Positions 2,190 through 23,977 of a stretch of 23,977 nt of DNA are shown one piece after another. Each line of letters starts with the position of its first letter. Within the stretch, counting starts at the first letter, position 1. Made by a program: the position numbers and the translations under genes. This DNA comes from a virus: IMG/VR virus record IMGVR_UViG_3300009155_003259, positions 1-23,977 of that record. One strand, 5' to 3'. Below the pieces are notes generated by a model that saw only the letters and a list, made by a program, of their open reading frames with translations, searched no databases and was not told the origin of the DNA.

Positions 2190-2405
2190 TTATTGTGACT
2201 GTGCAGATTCCAACGCATCAGCAGCTTCTTCCAATAGGTCTGCAATACGGTCAGGGGCACCTTCCTGTACACTTTTACGTGAAGTGATCTGTCGACGGAT
2301 CTCTGCTCGCTTGCGCAAACGGAACACTAGACTTTGTTCACTCACAGGCAAATGACTTTCGTCCTTGGCCATCAGTTCCTCAAAGCGGTCAAATTCTTCG
2401 TTCAT
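2190..2405 (-). CDS. Small acidic/helical protein, unknown function
   Basis: A 71-residue protein starting MNEEFDRFEELMAKDE. The start is chosen because its ATG overlaps the stop of the RNA ligase gene (ATGA), with GGAG about 7 bases upstream; an in-frame upstream extension lies inside the ligase. It is rich in Glu, Arg, Leu and Ala and predicted largely helical, with no motif I recognise. It is the last gene of the HD-ligase unit. About 55 gene-free bases separate it from the promoter at 2109-2137. Confidence 0.75.
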   Translation of the reverse strand: MNEEFDRFEELMAKDESHLPVSEQSLVFRLRKRAEIRRQITSRKSVQEGAPDRIADLLEEAADALESAQSQ

Positions 2406-3292
2406 ACCATCTCCAAATAGTCTCGCACCCATGCCAGGCGTGCTTGTTCATCCATAAGGGTATACAGCTCTATGTTAGCACGAATATGTGATAAGAGTCC
2501 GTAATATTCCTCGTCAATTTGTTCCCGGAATTCTTGTGTCATCAACTTGTCAGTACGAGGGTTACGTGCCACCCACTTTGCAGTTAGATAGTATGGGCTT
2601 TTGATCTTGGCACTCACTCGATAGTCATCTGTATAAAATACAAAACCTTCATGCCGAACAGTTTTCACTTCTCGCATTAGTTCGCCCAGAGTACAACGCT
2701 TCCATTCTACCACGTGGTCTGACAATGCATATTGGTGATACAGGCTGAGTCCATCGTTTTCGCTACGGCTTTCCCAAGTCTTTTTACGATAGCCCAGCAA
2801 GTACAGTCCTGGCTTTTCTACAATGATGTGTGGATCATTTGCATGCACACACTCAAACATAAAAGTCAAGTCAGGGAAGCCACTCACATACCGTTCAAAG
2901 GTGCCGCGACGCCGGTCAATGAAGGAGTTGGCCATGTCTACAAAGTCACCGGATGTGGATCCAGTTGTACTCACCAGCAACCCGCCGTTGTGCCATGTCA
3001 CTGCAACCATAAATCCATTGACCTTACGAAAGCATTCTACCACAGTATCTTCACTCAGCACAGGAGACTTGGCTTCTACACCGTAGTTGTAGATCTTTGT
3101 GAATGGCCGTGACACCACATTGAAGTCCTCATCCACGATGGTACCGCGACATTCTTCCAAAAAATCATTCCACAAGTTGTCGTAGAACACAGCCTTACGA
3201 TACTTGAGAACGTAGATACCATCGCCGGCAGGCTTCATACTAACCAACTTTGGGTTGGCTAGCACAAACTCCTTCAATAGTTCTTTGTTCAT
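2402..3292 (-). CDS. RNA ligase, T4 Rnl1-like
   Basis: A 296-residue ATP-dependent RNA ligase. The nucleotidyltransferase motif I is K90-V-N-G93, where the lysine takes AMP. It is preceded by LEECRGTIV (about 45-53), typical of Rnl1-type phage ligases. Motif IIIa-like FMFEC (144-148), motif IV EGFVFY (215-220) and motif V K229-I-K231 follow. Rnl1 enzymes seal broken tRNA anticodon loops after a kinase has healed the ends, as in T4 defence against the PrrC nuclease. Start ATG with GGAG 9 bases upstream, 1 base after the HD gene stop, so it belongs to that operon. A second ligase of a different family lies at 12465-13490. Confidence 0.9.
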   Translation of the reverse strand: MNKELLKEFVLANPKLVSMKPAGDGIYVLKYRKAVFYDNLWNDFLEECRGTIVDEDFNVVSRPFTKIYNYGVEAKSPVLSEDTVVECFRKVNGFMVAVTWHNGGLLVSTTGSTSGDFVDMANSFIDRRRGTFERYVSGFPDLTFMFECVHANDPHIIVEKPGLYLLGYRKKTWESRSENDGLSLYHQYALSDHVVEWKRCTLGELMREVKTVRHEGFVFYTDDYRVSAKIKSPYYLTAKWVARNPRTDKLMTQEFREQIDEEYYGLLSHIRANIELYTLMDEQARLAWVRDYLEMV

Positions 3293-3293
3293 T

Positions 3294-3800
3294 TCACGCT
3301 CCTACAATGCTGCGGGCACGAGCCATCAATGCGGCGTCACCGCGGGTCAATACTTCCAACAACATGCGCTTTTCTTCCAAATAGATCTTGGCGAAAGCAG
3401 GGTCATGTGCCATGATGCTGCGGCTGTTAGCGATCAAGTCAGCCAACTTCACAGTTTGTGCAGCAGCAGGGGCCATTGCAATATGCTCACGGTCCCGGGC
3501 CTTGCGAACAGCTCTGTTGCCATCTTCGGGGCAGCTGACATCAGTCAACCAGCTGACCAAAGACGCAACTTCATGTCCAAATTCACGGGTGATATCTTCT
3601 ATGGTCAAACCAGTGTCTTCCACTGTGTCGTGCAAGTATGCAGCAGCCACCATCACGTCGGTGTGAGGCACAGTTGCAACAATACCTGCAACTTCTGTAG
3701 GATGCACAATGTACGGCTCAAAGGTGTACTTGCGCACTTGTCCAACCGCAGCGTGGGCAGCGGTGGCAAATACTCGGGCTCTTTCTACCATTGTCATCAT
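3294..3800 (-). CDS. RelA/SpoT-type HD hydrolase (MESH1-like)
   Basis: A 168-residue single-domain HD phosphohydrolase. The metal ligands are visible: H33 (in YIVHP), H57-D58 (in AYLHDTVEDT) and D121 (in VKLADLIAN). The sequence HDTVEDT, together with AH near the N-terminus and YIVHPTEVA, is the signature of the (p)ppGpp hydrolase domain of SpoT/Rel and the stand-alone MESH1 and SAH enzymes. No synthetase domain is present. It could hydrolyse (p)ppGpp and blunt the host stringent response, but NADPH or another nucleotide substrate is possible. Start: ATGATG after GGAG; the second ATG (3797) has better spacing. It has its own strong promoter and leads the operon with the RNA ligase. Confidence 0.85.
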   Translation of the reverse strand: MMTMVERARVFATAAHAAVGQVRKYTFEPYIVHPTEVAGIVATVPHTDVMVAAAYLHDTVEDTGLTIEDITREFGHEVASLVSWLTDVSCPEDGNRAVRKARDREHIAMAPAAAQTVKLADLIANSRSIMAHDPAFAKIYLEEKRMLLEVLTRGDAALMARARSIVGA

Positions 3801-3871: not shown

Positions 3872-4924
3872 TTAAGTTTGAAATATAAACTCTTGAGATA
3901 AAATTCCACCTCTGCGGAGATTGATTAAAATTTCATCCCAGTTGGATTTAAACGCCCAGTTTTCAAAAGAACTTGGACGTTGATTTAGTCCATAAAATAT
4001 TAATGTGTGTAGTTCGTCGGAAAAATCACCGGTTGCATACCAAAATTTATCAGCAGTAGGATATGTTTTTTGTGGCTGGTGGGTTTTCTTGGGCATAAGA
4101 ATTGCTCCGGCAGGATATGTCAAAGTTTGAAACAAAGACAACATATTTTTTTGTTCTCTACCAGTAATAGTCTCTTTGAATTTTTTTGGAAAGTATCCTA
4201 GTGACTCAAACTTTGGTACGAGTTCTGACAGATATGCATTTAGAACAGCGGATCCTGAACCAGTACAAATCGATTCTGGAGTATCCATGATTTGATTAAA
4301 TGCTCTATCAATGTATAAAAATTTCCAACATTGTTGATCATCATCAAACCATATGTTAGGCTGTTGAAATCCAAACAAATCAAACTGATTTACATCATCC
4401 AATATGGGATAACATTGATTGTATTCATAAATGCCTTTCATCATGCCCGGCTCTACATAGCAAAAATGCATGAACTTCTTGTGCCACTCAGAGTCAGAGT
4501 AAAACCAATTAAAATAATTGTTGTTGCAATTGATTACTGTTAACTTAGTTGATGCAAATTTTTCTTTGTAGTTTTGTGCAATTGGAATAGCACATCGATC
4601 AACTTCGGCCAAATTACAAAACACAACCAGTGGATCAGTTGGAGTATATCGAATCATCACAATTTCGTCAAACACAATGTTGTATTTGTAGGCAGTATCA
4701 AGAACTATACGCGAGTCTGGCCCGCCCGAAAACCAAAAACGCAGATACGAATGTTGATCTCTAAGTTGAATCAAATGATCTCTAATTGCGTGTTCAAAAC
4801 TAATAGCTGGATTGATTGAGAATTTGTAATTGTCAAACCCGTTGCCCAATACAAATTTATAATCAGTAGTATAGTCTATATCCCATTGGGAATATACAAT
4901 TTTTGTATCATTGACGTAGTGCAT
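3872..4924 (-). CDS. PP-loop ATP pyrophosphatase-domain protein
   Basis: A 350-residue protein with a P-loop-like FSGGPDSRIVLD (about residues 64-75), the SGGxDS signature of PP-loop (N-type) ATPases that adenylate a substrate, as in asparagine synthetase, LarE and tRNA-thiolation enzymes. No glutaminase domain precedes it and no CX2C tRNA-thiolase motif is seen. The rest is aromatic-rich with no domain I recognise. The ATG overlaps the stop of the TctC gene (TAATG), so translation is coupled. It is the last gene of the transporter cluster. The locus is clearly AT-richer than the HD/ligase genes beside it, suggesting separate acquisition. The substrate cannot be inferred. Confidence 0.75.
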   Translation of the reverse strand: MHYVNDTKIVYSQWDIDYTTDYKFVLGNGFDNYKFSINPAISFEHAIRDHLIQLRDQHSYLRFWFSGGPDSRIVLDTAYKYNIVFDEIVMIRYTPTDPLVVFCNLAEVDRCAIPIAQNYKEKFASTKLTVINCNNNYFNWFYSDSEWHKKFMHFCYVEPGMMKGIYEYNQCYPILDDVNQFDLFGFQQPNIWFDDDQQCWKFLYIDRAFNQIMDTPESICTGSGSAVLNAYLSELVPKFESLGYFPKKFKETITGREQKNMLSLFQTLTYPAGAILMPKKTHQPQKTYPTADKFWYATGDFSDELHTLIFYGLNQRPSSFENWAFKSNWDEILINLRRGGILSQEFIFQT

Positions 4925-5787
4925 TATTTTTTGATTGATTTCAACAAAAAGTTAACTTGTTCGTCGGTTGATGCTGTAGACATTTTTGTAAAAAACTGTC
5001 TGGTCTTGAAATAATCTTGAAGCGGTTGAGTTTGCAACAAACGAGCCATATCAGACCGTAGTTCAGTTTGAAGATTGGCAGGAATATTTTTGGAAGAAGC
5101 ATAAACCATCATGTAATAATTCATTACACTTTGATTGATCTCTCCCAATGGGCGTGTGCTCAGTAACTCGGTTGGACCAGTATTGTGAGTACATACAGCT
5201 TGACCATTGCGTTCAATGACCTTGCCCGACGTTCCTAACACATACTCAGTTTCTTGTGCAGCAGCAGCACGAATCTGTGCCCCACTACCGCTGTAGATTA
5301 CAGTTTTGACTGTGCCAGGGCTGGCAGCTTTGATAGCATCAGTGACCCAATTCAAAGTGCTTGGGAATGACTGTACACTAATACGATATGTACCGGGCGT
5401 GGTAAAAATAGCATCAGGTGCAGTCTTACCAACAGCACAAAGATAATCGGGTGCATAATACCAAATTGATATCATATTTTGTGCAGTAGGCGGCACAAGA
5501 TAGCATTCATGATCAAGAGGCAACAAATGGTCTCTATTAGACCACACTGCTATTGTTGGTTTTTTGGTATTTTTAAGATCCTGTGCCATAGCTGCACAAT
5601 TGCCATTGTACAACACAATCGATGTATCCCATCCCAGTTGTTTAAGGCCGGGGGTTAGTAGTTCGGCAATATTTTGATCATTTGAACCGCCACCCCAGGG
5701 GATTAAAAATGTAAATGTTTTGTCAGCTGCGGACGCACCGGCAGCGATAACCATTGCAGTTACGAGAGTTAATAGTTGTTTAATCAT
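4924..5787 (-). CDS. tctC: TctC/Bug-type periplasmic solute-binding protein
   Basis: A 287-residue protein with a clear Sec signal peptide: basic start MIKQ, hydrophobic core, cleavage expected after ASA (about residue 20). The mature part begins with a beta strand and IPWGGGSNDQN (29-39), matching the P-(F/W)-x-x-GG-xx-D ligand loop of the Bug family. Bug/TctC proteins bind carboxylates and feed the tripartite tricarboxylate transporter (TTT). The adjacent TctA-type permease gene (20-base gap) supports this strongly. RBS AAAGG is 8 bases before the ATG. It is divergent from bacterial members, and several cysteines in the mature part are unusual. A carboxylate ligand is inferred, not shown. 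Confidence 0.8.
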   Translation of the reverse strand: MIKQLLTLVTAMVIAAGASAADKTFTFLIPWGGGSNDQNIAELLTPGLKQLGWDTSIVLYNGNCAAMAQDLKNTKKPTIAVWSNRDHLLPLDHECYLVPPTAQNMISIWYYAPDYLCAVGKTAPDAIFTTPGTYRISVQSFPSTLNWVTDAIKAASPGTVKTVIYSGSGAQIRAAAAQETEYVLGTSGKVIERNGQAVCTHNTGPTELLSTRPLGEINQSVMNYYMMVYASSKNIPANLQTELRSDMARLLQTQPLQDYFKTRQFFTKMSTASTDEQVNFLLKSIKK

Positions 5788-5807
5788 AGAGTATCCTTTC
5801 TAGTTAA

Positions 5808-7112
5808 TTATAAAACATATAGCTGTAAAAGTCTATATGCAGTTGGCCAAAAATACGGACCCAGCATCCATACAAAAATCATTGGAACTGGATCAATTTT
5901 TTTCTTGTACAAAAAATATCCCACCACAGTGGAAATTGCAAAAACAATCATGTAAAAGACTGAGCGGTCTGAGTCCATGCCCAAATACCAAACATCACAT
6001 GCTATCAATGCAAAAATAAAATAAAATACATATTGGTAATATCTGGCAAACCAGTTGATCATTTGAACAATATAATGCACACAAAATGCAAGACATGCCA
6101 CTACTCCAACTGATATACCCACGGCCATTTTCAAATAAGTATCCGCATTGAGTTGGTTAATCGACCAACCGCGATCGGTCAGCAAATTGACCACTATGGC
6201 CTCACTTGGTTGTATTGCCACACCAAATACCAATAATGGAAACAGCACAGATATCACAGCCGCATTGTCGGCTGCTTCCGCTGAACTTATTCTTGTCAAT
6301 GCAGTGCTAGATTTGATCTTGGATTCAACAAAATGTGCAGTAGCAGCACTTACTGTTACTCCAATCAACGGCAACAGTCCTGTTAAAAATCCAATAATAG
6401 TACCTCGGGCCATCACTGCGGCTGGTACCAATTGTACAGGTTGACTGGTATCAATTTTGTTGTGATCTACTGGACTTGCATTGGACATATCTGCCATGGC
6501 AGCAAACAACATAGGGATGGCATACATGCCTAACAGTATAGGAAGGAAAGGCAAGCCATTGACCAAAAATTCTACCCCCATGGTCAGGATAGATTTACCT
6601 AAAAACTGGTTGTATCCAATCAAGCTACCTACTAGCCCAATCACACACAATAGTAAATTTGTTTTGAATTTATTTCCAGACCAAGCCAGCGCAGAAACTG
6701 CTACCACGACTATAATGACAAAGAATACATCTGTGCGAAGAAAATATCGAAATTCAGTACCAAACTGAATTAACAAGCTCAGCATTGCTACAGATGCTAA
6801 CGTGGCAACAGCACTAGCCTGTCCAGTCCTATACAATGCAGTCCATAACAAGTCGGAGTTGATGATTTCTTGTCGTTCTTTAAGAACTGGAATGGCCGTG
6901 ACATCACCAGCAAGGCCAAGCCACAGCCCAACTACACTTGAGCTAAACTGCCCGCAAGTGATCATGGTAGCATAAAATGCAATCAAAGTGTTGAATTCTA
7001 AATGTGCCACAAATGGATATAGCATGATCATCATCACGCTGTCTCCTATTGCTGGCAACATTCCTACCAAGAGTCCTATTGGGATTGCAAGAAATATTAT
7101 AAAAAATTCCAT
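5808..7112 (-). CDS. tctA: TctA-type permease of a tripartite tricarboxylate transporter
   Basis: A 434-residue, very hydrophobic protein with about 11-12 membrane segments. The TctA layout is visible: an N-terminal GLLVGMLPAIGDS loop (TctA: G-x-PGxG), a segment with GQFSSSVVGLWLGLAGD (TctA: yyGGs...P) and a mid-protein repeat of the first motif, GFLTGLLPLIGVTVSA. The C-terminus ends in PMIFVWMLGPYFWP, like the TctA P-x-x-LG-x-x-LG-P region. With the TctC homologue next door this is a proton- or sodium-driven carboxylate importer. I found no separate TctB (small 4-helix subunit). It follows the oxygenase stop by 6 bases. A transporter of this type in a phage is unexpected. Confidence 0.8.
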   Translation of the reverse strand: MEFFIIFLAIPIGLLVGMLPAIGDSVMMIMLYPFVAHLEFNTLIAFYATMITCGQFSSSVVGLWLGLAGDVTAIPVLKERQEIINSDLLWTALYRTGQASAVATLASVAMLSLLIQFGTEFRYFLRTDVFFVIIVVVAVSALAWSGNKFKTNLLLCVIGLVGSLIGYNQFLGKSILTMGVEFLVNGLPFLPILLGMYAIPMLFAAMADMSNASPVDHNKIDTSQPVQLVPAAVMARGTIIGFLTGLLPLIGVTVSAATAHFVESKIKSSTALTRISSAEAADNAAVISVLFPLLVFGVAIQPSEAIVVNLLTDRGWSINQLNADTYLKMAVGISVGVVACLAFCVHYIVQMINWFARYYQYVFYFIFALIACDVWYLGMDSDRSVFYMIVFAISTVVGYFLYKKKIDPVPMIFVWMLGPYFWPTAYRLLQLYVL

Positions 7113-7118
7113 GACAAT

Positions 7119-7964
7119 TTATAATTGTATCTGCTTGACCAAGTGTTGGTTGATGTTATTGATGATCCAATGGTCTGATGAGTTATTAATCATGCCACTG
7201 ATTCTTAAAAACACCCTAGGAACCCAGGCAGTATTTGCTGTGTAGTGCATTCGATTACAATTATCAAATACCACTGCATCCCCAATTTTCCAATTGGTCC
7301 AATATTGATCATCTACTCCCAACACATGCCCGGGTACATAATCAGTCAGTGCCATCAACAATCTAATAGATGTCATGCCTCTGATTGACTTTGTGGACAC
7401 ATCAAATGGCAAATCTAATACTGTAGGATTGCTAGCAGCTATGTTCCGCCACATGGTCAACATAGTATCCACATGTGCTGGAAAAATACAAGCAGTTGGT
7501 TGATATTGTATTGCTACGGCACAATGCTCTAGATCAAATGCTTGTGCTATGGTTAATAATTCAGGATACGCTACAGGATTGATTATACTGTGTGTTACCG
7601 AATTGAATCCTGCGGCTTTTTGCATAGCATGCTCACCACCTAGATAATTGGTATCAAAAGAACTATTTGAAGCAGTAATATGCTTGTTGTCTTTGGAGAT
7701 TTTATTAGCTAGATCTATTAGAGTTGGGGATGTGACTGTGGCAATATGCTCTATTTTGTATTCTCTAATAGTGATACTGGTTGCTAACTTAGAAATTTTA
7801 TATACATCGGGTCCTAGAATGTCTATGAGATTTTCATAGTTGTCCATCCAAGAAAAATAATCTCGCACTGTTTTTATATTGGCATATTGTGTCTGATAAA
7901 AAGACAAGGCTGATACGGTCAAATTATCTACTTGAATTTCACGGCCAATAATATCAGTGTTCAT
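7119..7964 (-). CDS. 2-oxoglutarate/Fe(II)-dependent oxygenase-like protein
   Basis: A 281-residue protein. The iron facial triad is visible as H164-V-D166 (FPAHVD) and a distal H240 (NRMHYTAN), followed by R250 (VPRVFLRISG), the arginine expected to hold 2-oxoglutarate. Between them WKIGDAVVFDN is the typical strand before the distal histidine. This is the double-stranded beta-helix core of aspartyl/asparaginyl-hydroxylase-like or phytanoyl-type dioxygenases. I see no clue to the substrate. The ATG follows the phosphoesterase stop by 1 base; an upstream GTG start is possible but lies inside that gene. TctA follows directly, so it shares the transporter operon. Confidence 0.75.
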   Translation of the reverse strand: MNTDIIGREIQVDNLTVSALSFYQTQYANIKTVRDYFSWMDNYENLIDILGPDVYKISKLATSITIREYKIEHIATVTSPTLIDLANKISKDNKHITASNSSFDTNYLGGEHAMQKAAGFNSVTHSIINPVAYPELLTIAQAFDLEHCAVAIQYQPTACIFPAHVDTMLTMWRNIAASNPTVLDLPFDVSTKSIRGMTSIRLLMALTDYVPGHVLGVDDQYWTNWKIGDAVVFDNCNRMHYTANTAWVPRVFLRISGMINNSSDHWIINNINQHLVKQIQL

Positions 7965-7965
7965 G

Positions 7966-8511
7966 TCAGTGATGCTCTTTGATTGCACCCTTCAAGCCAA
8001 GTCGAATTGCTTCGTCCATGGAGATAGCAATTGCACCAGTGGAATCCATGCCAACATCCACAGCACGATATCGCTCCATTCCACTTGTGCCACCGTGAAG
8101 ATGACCATGCAAGTGTACTGAACCGCAATGCATTTGGTCCCATTCTGCAATAGGATAGTGAAACATCACAACTTTGATTTCGTTGAACTGCACATCCAGA
8201 TACTTGTGGACTTCGCAAAAACATGCACGGAATTCAGGATCCTGCAAGGTCTTGCGGTCGTGATTGCCTTCAATCAGGATTTTGTTGCCGTTGCAACGCA
8301 TCATGTATTCTGCTGCTTTGGCCGCTGGCAAGAACGCTACATCGCCTAGGATGTACACAGTATCTTCAGGAGCAATCATGGCATTCCATTCAATTACCAT
8401 TTGTTCGTTCATGTATGCAACATCGTCACGAAATCGTGCCCGTGTTACAGGGCAGAACTTCATGATGTTTTTGTGCCCAAAGTGCAAGTCAGATGTTACC
8501 CAAGTCTTCAT
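7966..8511 (-). CDS. Calcineurin-like metallophosphoesterase
   Basis: A 181-residue phosphoesterase with all metal-binding motifs in order: D8-L-H10 (SDLHFGH), GD57 (ILGDVAF), GNH84D, H118 (FHYP) and G136-H-L-H139. Small phage enzymes of this type can hydrolyse phosphodiesters or phosphomonoesters; the substrate is not evident. The start is set at MKTWVTSDLH because motif I must lie at the N-terminus and the ATG sits just after the stop of the preceding gene. It is second in the operon started by the promoter at 8771-8799. Confidence 0.88.
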   Translation of the reverse strand: MKTWVTSDLHFGHKNIMKFCPVTRARFRDDVAYMNEQMVIEWNAMIAPEDTVYILGDVAFLPAAKAAEYMMRCNGNKILIEGNHDRKTLQDPEFRACFCEVHKYLDVQFNEIKVVMFHYPIAEWDQMHCGSVHLHGHLHGGTSGMERYRAVDVGMDSTGAIAISMDEAIRLGLKGAIKEHH

Positions 8512-8800: not shown

Positions 8801-9463
8801 CTATGTTGACATAAGGGTGTGGGTAAATTGCAACAACAGTTGATGATGCAGTCCTTGATGCCAATGTGGTGCTAGATATTGCCAGGGTTTTTGATACCAT
8901 AATCGGGTACTTTCTAAATGACAACCAATCACCCCAACTCTGTTTTGAATGATAGCCATTGGGTCACCATTTGCATATCGACCCACAGTGGTAAATTTGG
9001 TCTCATCACCAATCAGGGCACACCCGTCCCAGAAGAACATGTTATGCGGTTGGCCTTGCCAATCAATTGCGGTAACAGTTCCGTAACTTCTACGTACCTC
9101 AGCACCCGGACGTTTGATGTATTGTTCGCACTTTACGTCCTGCAAAATATCAAAAAACCAATGCCCGGCCCAGTATGCTCCCATGCAAATGCCCAAGTAT
9201 CTGCCGCCGGATTCCACAAAATCAGCTATCATGTTGGCTTGTTTACGCAGGAAGAAATCATAGTAGCGATCAGCTTCGCCAATCCCCCCTGGAAACACAA
9301 CCATTGCTGCCTGTGCCAACAAGTCTGAATTTAGAGTTTTTTCGTTGAATCTCTGTACGCGATAGTGACTGCCTAGACTCTTTTCTACCCCATCACAGCT
9401 TTGATTGCTGCATTCAGGATGATGAGAGAACAAGGCAATCAGGGGTTTATGGGCATCCAGCAT
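8801..9463 (-). CDS. Class I glutamine amidotransferase-like protein (BPL_N type)
   Basis: A 220-residue protein with the class I amidotransferase fold: FPGG at 57-60 (oxyanion loop), the nucleophile elbow GICMGAYWAG with C93, and H182/E184 in GCHLESTRLWY as candidate catalytic partners. The pattern best fits the N-terminal domain of fungal biotin-protein ligases (BPL_N), whose stand-alone bacterial relatives have no settled role. A hydrolase or glutaminase activity is likely, but a partner synthetase is not adjacent. It has no Shine-Dalgarno; a late-promoter-like motif shared with the radical SAM gene at 537-1295 ends 4 bases upstream of the ATG. Confidence 0.75.
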   Translation of the reverse strand: MLDAHKPLIALFSHHPECSNQSCDGVEKSLGSHYRVQRFNEKTLNSDLLAQAAMVVFPGGIGEADRYYDFFLRKQANMIADFVESGGRYLGICMGAYWAGHWFFDILQDVKCEQYIKRPGAEVRRSYGTVTAIDWQGQPHNMFFWDGCALIGDETKFTTVGRYANGDPMAIIQNRVGVIGCHLESTRLWYQKPWQYLAPHWHQGLHHQLLLQFTHTLMST

Positions 9464-12192: not shown

Positions 12193-12465
12193 TTACTTAA
12201 TTTGAAATAAACAATACACACTCAAGGCAAAAACAGCCACAAACCCAGCTGTGTCAATCAGTTCAGAATACGATCCAGTCTTGCGAAGTGCCTGTGCAAT
12301 TAGATCAGTCAGTCGTTTAAAACTCTGATTTAAATTGCCATTGAATATCCCATCAATGATCAAGGCCACAGCCATAGCAAACATTGCCACAGTTACAACA
12401 TTCAACAATATCAACCATTGATAATAAGATATCCACTTGTCAAGATCTTTTATGTAGAATGACAT
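12193..12465 (-). CDS. Small two-helix membrane protein
   Basis: A 90-residue protein with two hydrophobic helices, about residues 16-40 (WLILLNVVTVAMFAMAVALI) and 69-88 (AGFVAVFALSVYCLFQ), separated by a ~28-residue charged loop. Its ATG overlaps the RNA ligase stop (TAATG). Size and topology allow a holin-like or superinfection-exclusion role, but no sequence signature supports either. It pairs with the secreted HExxH protein, which follows after 5 bases. Confidence 0.7.
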   Translation of the reverse strand: MSFYIKDLDKWISYYQWLILLNVVTVAMFAMAVALIIDGIFNGNLNQSFKRLTDLIAQALRKTGSYSELIDTAGFVAVFALSVYCLFQIK

Positions 12466-13490
12466 TACTTTTCTCCCAGCAGGTACCGGTTAGAGATAGC
12501 CTTGAAGCTCATGCCACCATGCACTTGCTTGAACACAATGCCTTCACGTTCGGGTCCTGTGATATCGCCCATCACACTCTTGCCTTCAGCAAACTTTAGG
12601 ATTTCTTCCACAGAGCCTGTACCAAGATTCCAATCAGTGTGCAGCACAGGAACATGCAGCAGTCCCATCTCCTCAACAAGAGCACGACGGAACATGGGGC
12701 TCAAGTATGCACCACCAAACACATCGTAGATATCAAACACACGGAACTCTGGGTCACGCAGTTTATAGATGTTGCCTTGGATGCCGGGCCCGATTAGTTC
12801 GCCTTGAACAGCAACATTCTTGTTGCCAAACAAACCGCGAATCTTTGCTTCAATCCCATCACGACGGGCCACAGCCCATAATGTGTTGCCTTCAGTTTCC
12901 TTTAGGTCCAGGTTACGTGAGCAAACACCGAATTCACCATCGATCAAGTACACAGTCATTGAAGAACCTTCCAGCTTTTCAGTAACTTCATACTCAGTGC
13001 CTGATTCGGCAGCAGCACGGATTTCTGCAACTAGATTTTGTGCCCGTTCTTGGTCAGTCTTGGGAATCTCAGATGGAAAGTTACCACGTGCCATACCAGC
13101 CAACTGAGCATTCATGGGCATTTCCCACTTCACAATGTTCAGCAATTCAGTAACATCTTCGCCCTCAACGAAAGAATTTGTTTGTGGAATAACATCATCA
13201 AGATTCAACAGCAAACCTTGAGATAGTTGGCCACGCAGCTTTACAGTACGCAGACGTTCACCGCGGATGCCTTCGAACTCACGAGGCTCCTTGCCCTTGC
13301 TTAGGAAAGCAGCAATCTCAGTAGGAATCCAAGAGTCAATCTCGCAATACACTGCACGATCGCCTACAGCAAACTCGCCCTTCTTTACCACTACCTTCCA
13401 TCCACCAATGGTAGCGCACTCAATTGCATCTGCACCTTCAATCGGGGTGAGTGCATCAATCTTACGAATAGTAGCCATCTTGCGAGTCAT
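12465..13490 (-). CDS. RNA ligase, DraRnl/Rnl5 type
   Basis: A 341-residue ligase of the Deinococcus Rnl (DRB0094, Rnl5) type. The first ~110 residues form the OB-like N-terminal domain typical of that family (VVVKKGEFAVGDRAVYCEID). The nucleotidyltransferase domain has motif I K172-L-E-G (the lysine adenylated by ATP), CSRNLDL, the NVAVQGELIG motif, EGIVFK (motif IV) and FKAISNRYL (motif V). Rnl5 enzymes seal 3'-OH RNA nicks, preferably RNA on a template, unlike Rnl1. RBS AAAGGA lies 7 bases before the ATG; it overlaps its neighbours at both ends (ATGA, TAATG). Confidence 0.92.
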   Translation of the reverse strand: MTRKMATIRKIDALTPIEGADAIECATIGGWKVVVKKGEFAVGDRAVYCEIDSWIPTEIAAFLSKGKEPREFEGIRGERLRTVKLRGQLSQGLLLNLDDVIPQTNSFVEGEDVTELLNIVKWEMPMNAQLAGMARGNFPSEIPKTDQERAQNLVAEIRAAAESGTEYEVTEKLEGSSMTVYLIDGEFGVCSRNLDLKETEGNTLWAVARRDGIEAKIRGLFGNKNVAVQGELIGPGIQGNIYKLRDPEFRVFDIYDVFGGAYLSPMFRRALVEEMGLLHVPVLHTDWNLGTGSVEEILKFAEGKSVMGDITGPEREGIVFKQVHGGMSFKAISNRYLLGEK

Positions 13491-22344: not shown

Positions 22345-23977
22345 TTATATGGTTAATAATTTTTTCTTCTTCACGGAAAAACTACCTTGTGCTTTGGCAC
22401 TTCCGGCACCACGTTGCGTTCCATTTGCATTTTCAACTCCCACAAGATCCACCGTGGCTTTACCAAAGTTTCTGCGTCTTGCAAAATAAAACAATTCTAA
22501 GAATCGATTAAGACTCATAGTTTTATCCTCTGGAAAGTCCAATCGATATGTTGTATAAGTCTTTGTCAGGGGTTGATTAAAACTCAAGTAATCCCAAATA
22601 TTATAATCTAACTCAAGATTCATAGGATATTGATTTCTATCATTGTACTTGATATAGTAACTTCTTTGTAGTTTCATTAGGCTGGTTGATAAATCTTCGG
22701 GTAGATTGTAGCGTTGTAAAAATATTTCCAAGAAATCATACAACTCATCTACTCGATCTTCTTGATGCATGTTCATGCTGGTTCTGTGTATGATATTCCA
22801 CCCGTGTATTTCCACACCAATCTTGGGATGGTTGATTTGACCAGTGGTCATCCAATTAGAAAAGTATTGTCTTGTTTCGCTTTGTTCTTTTTTCAACCAA
22901 TGATTGGTCATAAAATATGCAAACAACTCTTCGTAGTAATCATTATAATCGATACCTGTGTATTTGTTAATAAATCTAGCAACCAGTGTGGCAAATCCAT
23001 TGATGTGGAATGTGGTCTGGAACCAGGAAAAGATCTGTGCATCCAACATCACTGGTGTGGGCATGTCTTTGGTACCGGTGATGACATCAATGCTTTCTTC
23101 AATGTGTTCCACACTGTAACTGCCAGCAAAGTAATCTGTAACAGGTTGGCTGGTAATCTTGAACAATTTTTTCTGCAACAGATTCATTTCGGCATTTTCC
23201 AACAACTGCGCTTGAAACACAGTGATACCAGTGTGCTGATTTAACTCGTACAATGCATAAAAGTTTTTCTTCCAGGTTGTCAAGGTCTCACCTGGCAACC
23301 CAAGTATGAGTTCTGTGTATGCAGGAATATTACGCTGATCACATAATTCAAACACTTCTTCCAGTTTGTTCATCTCCATATTTTTGCGGCGAATATTTTC
23401 CAACACATCTTGGTCTAGACTTTGTACACTCAGTGTTAATCCTTGATTGAAGCCACGAGCATCCAACAGTTTCTTTACAATGTCAATCACTTCTTTCTTT
23501 TGATTTTTAGCCCAGGCCACACTAAACGTGCGTGGAGAACCGTATTTTTCTTGGCACTCAATTATCTTGTCAGCAATCATACCATCACGTTCAGGGAACA
23601 TGCCAAAATTAGCATCGGTAATTGAGATCCAATCAAAGTTGCGTTTGGCCATCCATTCTAGTTCTTCAAACACACGTTCAAGTTCAAACTTTTTAACTTT
23701 GTTGTAGGTTAAACTGCCCCAGTCACAGAATGTACAAGCAAACGGACAACCACGATTGGTTTCCAATGTACCTTGCCATGTTATGTCAGGATGATCAGCA
23801 ATCATCTGGTCAAAGATACCTGCCAAGTATGGGCTGGGCACTTCCTCTAATGATTCGATACGTTTGGAATCCTGGGTTTGTATTGCGAGGCCATTTCTGT
23901 TGATCAACAGTCCGGGTACATTTTCCCAATCTTTAGTTTCAAAGTGCTGTAGCACACGTTTGAAAGTTATTTCGCCT
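22345..23977 (-). CDS. Large radical SAM protein (B12-binding type), 5' truncated by the window
   Basis: At least 544 residues; the reading frame is open to the right edge, so the N-terminus is missing. About residues 73-85 of the visible part, ETNRGCPFACTFC, contain the CX3CX2C radical SAM cluster, followed by DWGSLTYNKVKKFELERVF and, later, LGLPGET. Residues just inside the edge (FKRVLQHFETKDWENVPGLL) look like the linker after an N-terminal cobalamin-binding domain, as in BchE/MiaB-like P-methylases, so a B12 domain probably lies beyond the window. The C-terminal ~300 residues resemble no domain I know. B12-radical SAM enzymes methylate or rearrange unactivated carbons; substrate unknown. 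Confidence 0.8.
   Translation of the reverse strand, partial: GEITFKRVLQHFETKDWENVPGLLINRNGLAIQTQDSKRIESLEEVPSPYLAGIFDQMIADHPDITWQGTLETNRGCPFACTFCDWGSLTYNKVKKFELERVFEELEWMAKRNFDWISITDANFGMFPERDGMIADKIIECQEKYGSPRTFSVAWAKNQKKEVIDIVKKLLDARGFNQGLTLSVQSLDQDVLENIRRKNMEMNKLEEVFELCDQRNIPAYTELILGLPGETLTTWKKNFYALYELNQHTGITVFQAQLLENAEMNLLQKKLFKITSQPVTDYFAGSYSVEHIEESIDVITGTKDMPTPVMLDAQIFSWFQTTFHINGFATLVARFINKYTGIDYNDYYEELFAYFMTNHWLKKEQSETRQYFSNWMTTGQINHPKIGVEIHGWNIIHRTSMNMHQEDRVDELYDFLEIFLQRYNLPEDLSTSLMKLQRSYYIKYNDRNQYPMNLELDYNIWDYLSFNQPLTKTYTTYRLDFPEDKTMSLNRFLELFYFARRRNFGKATVDLVGVENANGTQRGAGSAKAQGSFSVKKKKLLTI

Follow-up and report, generated by a model that had tools for sequence, protein, structure and literature searches.

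A pair of adjacent genes in the window, the whole 23,977-base IMG/VR virus record analysed here, is best read as a phage-encoded importer of small acids: a binding-protein-dependent, gradient-driven, secondary-active system of the tripartite tricarboxylate (TTT) kind, made of only two proteins (a TctA-family permease and a TctC-type binding protein), which would work either free of TctB or with the TctB of the host. We put the probability of this reading at roughly 60%. It draws on the assignment of the permease to TctA by Pfam, the homology of its partner to TctC at the level of profiles, with a fold match in support, the pairing of the two genes in 81 of 83 viral loci, the absence of TctB from all of these loci, their location in phage DNA and the purifying selection that acts on them. 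We propose that the phage makes a secreted TctC-type protein, which would bind a small solute, probably a carboxylated one, in the periplasm of the host; the inner-membrane TctA of the phage would receive the solute from this protein and, in the infected cell, move it inward on an ion gradient. The phage would make no TctB of its own, so that TctA would have to function by itself or use the TctB of the host. For the phage pair, transport as such, its direction, energy coupling, substrate and timing are what we infer from this evidence.

Both open reading frames are found on the minus strand at the positions given by the initial annotation (Table 1), in a tight same-strand run composed of an oxygenase-like gene, tctA (after 7 nt), the tctC-like gene (after 21 nt) and a PP-loop gene, the start of which overlaps the tctC stop. 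Values of dN/dS calculated between relatives (0.08-0.10 for tctA, 0.04-0.10 for the tctC-like gene) demonstrate that both genes are under purifying selection. Scans of the window for sigma-70 promoters and terminators gave results at or near chance, with fewer promoter-like matches than in shuffled sequences, and the single match to the T4 late-promoter motif in the window is located away from the tctA-tctC operon, at chance level.

Table 1. Coordinates of the features discussed in the text (in the window unless a locus is named).
Feature	Position	Strand	Basis and remarks
tctA, TctA-family permease, 434 aa	5808..7112	-	divergent viral clade; PF01970 E 1.4e-40, alignment and motif counts, tree
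tctC-like gene; 287-aa product with signal peptide, predicted periplasmic binding protein	4924..5787	-	HHalign to bacterial TctC, AlphaFold2 model and PDB matches
PP-loop (SGGPDS) protein, 350 aa, third cassette gene	3872..4924	-	homologue likewise placed in L035; within the 83% block common with L003
2-oxoglutarate oxygenase-like protein with the motif HVD...H...R; gene immediately upstream of tctA, outside the moving cassette	7119..7964	-	HHalign and motif positions
BPL_N/GATase-like protein	8801..9463	-	Pfam PF09825 E 3.8e-14; 48% identity to L035 protein (blastp)
RNA ligases and HD_4 hydrolase	2402-3292, 12465-13490, 3294-3800	-	Pfam, NCBIfam
~145-aa protein, examples from other viral loci	L049 5465-5905, L053 1019-1456, L093 987-1424	-	no Pfam match

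The permease matches the Pfam TctA family (PF01970) with a score of 139.7 bits (cut-off 28.9), covering positions 2-422 of the 423 in the profile. The TctA-like character proposed for it initially is therefore upheld along the full length of the protein, with ~11 helices by a simple hydropathy count instead of the ~12 suggested. Beyond close relatives, the nearest TctA is that of a 68-kb virus contig (L035), with 32% identity, and identity to the bacterial TctAs found does not exceed 25%. The divergence from bacterial forms claimed earlier is supported. In the tree, the window and L035 permeases are located on a very long branch that stands apart both from a larger clade of viral permeases and from every bacterial TctA, the exact placement of branches of such length being unsure. 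Judging by these sequence comparisons, we assign the window permease to a second, deeper viral TctA clade, an additional member of which (L196) is cut by the contig end.

The N-terminus of the binding protein reads as a typical signal peptide (MIKQLLTLVTAMVIAAGASA/ADK), and the start of the protein comprises this signal-peptide-like stretch and the glycine-rich motif FLIPWGGGSNDQ. Searches of Pfam, PHROG, NCBIfam and PDB sequences returned no match for the window protein; the TctC/Bug HMM (PF03401) identified neither it at E<=0.1 nor its relatives at E<=10, and on the larger viral clade this HMM reached only E 0.002, in one record. Profile-profile comparison with a template of 30 bacterial TctC proteins related both viral groups to this family (HHalign: window clade including L035, 92.5%, E 4.8e-7, 244 columns; larger viral clade, 98.5%, E 3.5e-15; reversed and shuffled templates, <=1%; window sequences alone, without L035, only 18.6%). 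In the larger clade, viral binding proteins were also matched by a bacterial TctC HMM, with E-values as low as 4.6e-12. The AlphaFold2 model of the window protein built from 41 homologues, bacterial TctC included, has a pLDDT of 82, while four close relatives alone gave no usable model (pLDDT 43). A Foldseek search of PDB with the former model, whose alignment held bacterial TctC, reported TctC/Bug-type proteins as all of the top 16 matches (Bug27, BugD, MatC, RPA4515, TphC and a terephthalate-binding protein among them), with a clear gap before the next group. Because of the bacterial sequences in the alignment and the failure of the four relatives alone to yield a model, the predicted fold backs TctC membership but is not independent proof of it. 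Bug/TTT proteins of uncultured Caudovirales phage are also present in BFVD, a collection of predicted viral structures. Taken together, the profile comparisons, with the fold match in support, indicate that the binding protein is homologous to TctC. The initial annotation had called it a Bug/TctC-like protein with a signal peptide and had proposed profile searches of both proteins as a check; these place the permease in TctA by Pfam and its partner in TctC by profile-profile comparison, with L035 included.

A scan of a virus collection with a mixed TctA alignment identified 194 virus stretches encoding TctA, the best 80 of which were retained. The 83 viral loci read form 41 clusters at 95% identity and 14 at 80%. 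In 81 of them a TctC-like gene adjoins tctA, 74 times downstream (often with an overlap of a few bases) and 7 times upstream, and the other two (L040 and L092) stop at the contig edge; the same gene pair, which the initial annotation had suggested seeking in aquatic virus contigs, is widespread in viruses. With a custom TctB HMM, a TctB gene adjoining tctA was detected at 79 of 80 bacterial loci (in the remaining one, L127, TctB is fused to TctA, which makes 80/80) and at 0 of 83 viral ones, a contrast limited by the choice of the bacterial loci as best matches to the TctA alignment and by the fragmentary nature of many viral contigs, from which a distant, unlinked tctB could escape. A cruder count of small neighbours with at least 3 helices gave 73/80 for bacteria versus 0/83 for viruses, and a search of 50 viral records, up to 172 kb long, with Pfam TctB gave no match at E<=10. 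TctB, which had been remarked upon as missing from the window, is seen neither there nor in its longer relatives, and both the pairing of tctA with a binding protein gene and the absence of TctB are systematic across viruses.

In 26 loci of the larger clade, the gene immediately upstream of tctA lies on the other strand and encodes a conserved ~145-aa protein with 1-2 helices (Table 1). We considered it as a hidden TctB and rejected it on account of its strand, its too few helices and the lack of a Pfam match. The window ORF 12193-12465 (90 aa, two helices) was dismissed as well, as too short and 5 kb distant.

Two uses of the pair other than a self-contained importer deserve consideration. 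According to the first, phage TctA and TctC would replace the corresponding host subunits, use the host TctB and thereby change the host's TTT import. The retention of TctB, adjoining or fused to TctA, in all 80 bacterial comparison loci suggests that this subunit matters, and the small subunit of TRAP transporters was found to be essential (review: PMC5812351). On the other hand, TctB is poorly conserved between systems (PMC5812351) and a phage TctA with <=25% identity to bacterial ones would have to fit the TctBs of its hosts; moreover, TctB is missing uniformly across two deep viral clades, and archaeal TctA is mostly stand-alone (PMC5898192). We regard the replacement of host subunits as rather unlikely. 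Within the preferred reading, that of a two-protein importer, we lean towards a TctA that does without TctB over one that borrows it from the host, because the absence is consistent across two deep lineages and the literature describes poor conservation of TctB (PMC5812351). The broader proposition, that a minimal TctA-TctC importer needing no TctB has been retained by tailed phages of two or more deep lineages, is tentative, and we would give it slightly worse than even odds.

The second alternative arises from the signature G-Hy3-G-Hy3-G-Hy2-P-G-Hy-G, which in TctA occurs in TM1 and TM7. The window permease deviates from it, with PAIG and PLIG at the respective positions, and L035 has PALG and PYVG. 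Alignment and motif counts indicate that in the window clade the PG glycine is absent from both repeats and the last C-terminal helix is missing, with the other signature glycines mostly retained; the larger viral clade keeps PG in TM7 and mostly lacks it in TM1. The altered signature weakens the label of a typical transporter TctA for the window permease, not its homology. As the conserved PG is absent from both repeats and the last helix is missing, transport in the window clade may be altered, and the change of the signature makes a non-transport role a serious rival for this clade. The pair would then serve in sensing or in a change of the envelope, e.g. as a TctC-type signal receptor or in the exclusion of other phages. 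Besides the modified permease, this would accord with the ability of TctC homologues to signal, as BctC does (PMC5812351), and with the company of a PP-loop enzyme instead of a catabolic gene; it is at odds with the TM7 signature retained by the larger viral clade and with the strict pairing of permease and binding protein, which is what an importer needs and what is seen. For the pair as a whole we consider a function other than import decidedly improbable, and retain the importer as the preferred reading.

The window-clade pair was found on five virus records, i.e. the window and four further contigs. One of these is 99.9% identical to the window across 18.5 kb; another (125,567 bases) is colinear with it, with ~94% identity around the pair, and encodes a T4-type family B DNA polymerase (E 1e-194), a clamp loader and PhoH. 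A match of this contig to the "terminase" family phrog_2 was rejected, as the gene in question is that of PhoH. The two other contigs have in common with the window an 83% block that starts exactly at the tctA start codon; in L003, at fine scale, the block ends 12 nt past the PP-loop stop, and the gene immediately upstream of it differs from that in the window. Given these sharp edges, tctA, the tctC-like gene and the PP-loop gene behave as a three-gene cassette. All three genes also occur in L035, where tctC comes first, tctA second and the PP-loop gene third; its PP-loop homologue (7293-8369, plus strand) is related to the window protein by HHalign (86.9%, E 4e-6), and the PP-loop gene is the constant third member of the window-clade cassette. 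The PP-loop protein itself (SGGxDS motif) has no match in Pfam. The amidotransferase-like gene of L035, 48% identical to the BPL_N/GATase-like gene of the window, shows conservation of this gene near the pair, a link that is an association only.

An origin of the pair in host DNA, misjoined to or recently caught by a phage contig, retains hardly any probability: some public "phage" records with TctA do resemble bacterial DNA, but on the five virus records the pair lies in different flanks (identities of 99.9%, ~94% and 83%), replication genes of the T4 type are present on the 125-kb relative, the larger clade sits near terminase and tail sheath genes, and no bacterial TctA above 25% identity was found. 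The pair is phage-borne, as initially stated, and an assembly join can in practice be dismissed. A tblastn search of isolate phages detected TctA only as distant matches in bacterial-looking records (AGRM01000002, OR845272, OR851239 and MT835892 in the phage collection; 21-33% identity) and nothing for the binding protein.

Analysis of the genomic neighborhood revealed a T4-type DNA polymerase on 7 of the 33 viral contigs searched, including the 125-kb relative of the window; several loci of the larger clade have genes for terminase and tail sheath a few kilobases or less from tctA. In that clade, the genes that recur nearby encode a methyltransferase, a P-loop protein weakly matching sulfotransferase and an oxygenase-like protein (25 loci). 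The product of the gene directly upstream of tctA in the window has homologues encoded close to tctA at 25 further viral loci (HHalign: 97%, E 1.2e-10), and a 2-oxoglutarate oxygenase-like family recurs near tctA in both viral clades (e.g. L100 4589-5269, plus strand, and 24 other loci). A tie of the adjacent oxygenase to imported 2-oxoglutarate is no more than a suggestion, as 2-oxoglutarate oxygenases are common in aquatic phages.

Elsewhere, the window encodes two different RNA ligases, of the T4 Rnl1 and DRB0094 types, an HD_4 domain hydrolase (PF13328) and a radical SAM protein (22345-23955, minus strand), whose best NCBIfam match, the KedN5 B12-dependent methyltransferase family, is below the family cut-off. 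A ~58-base direct repeat (~95% alike; 187-244 and 282-339) is located just downstream of tRNA-Gln and tRNA-Leu, and also occurs in relatives.

TTT-family genes have been noted on viral contigs before, as single annotations: a tctA domain, with its role given as unknown, on SUP05-associated viral contigs (PMC4164917), a tricarboxylate-transport gene on a myovirus contig from an oxygen-minimum zone (PMC8115048) and the BFVD entries. In the passages covered, neither of the two papers describes the pairing with TctC or the absence of TctB, and a search of main texts, with few subscription papers among them, found no description of a conserved TctB-less viral pair. A review gives the function of TctB as unknown (PMC5812351), and there is so far no characterised TctB (PMC13390454). 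With viral pairs of this kind, the need for TctB, and its purpose, could be examined in ready minimal systems, and a natural TctB-free form, if true, would show what TctB is for. A further suggestion from our results is that phages of the T4 type bring along a route of uptake from periplasm to cytoplasm, with a binding protein of their own; such a route would hint that infection is limited by the supply of a particular solute.

As in bacterial TctABC and BctCBA (TC 2.A.80), the gene of a TctA-family permease adjoins that of a TctC-type binding protein. The phage pair differs from these systems in having no TctB and a TctA at most 25% identical to the bacterial ones found, and the window clade additionally in the altered TM1 and TM7 signature and the three-gene cassette with a PP-loop protein. 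A complete TTT system has a four-TM TctB encoded with TctA or fused to it; this feature was sought in the viral loci and is absent, and we therefore class the pair as a variant of the TTT kind and not as a complete system. The stand-alone TctA of Archaea (arCOG04469; PMC5898192) resembles the viral one in occurring without TctB; however, archaeal TctA mostly lacks TctC too, whereas viral TctA is almost always paired with a binding protein (PMC5898192 for the archaeal proteins).
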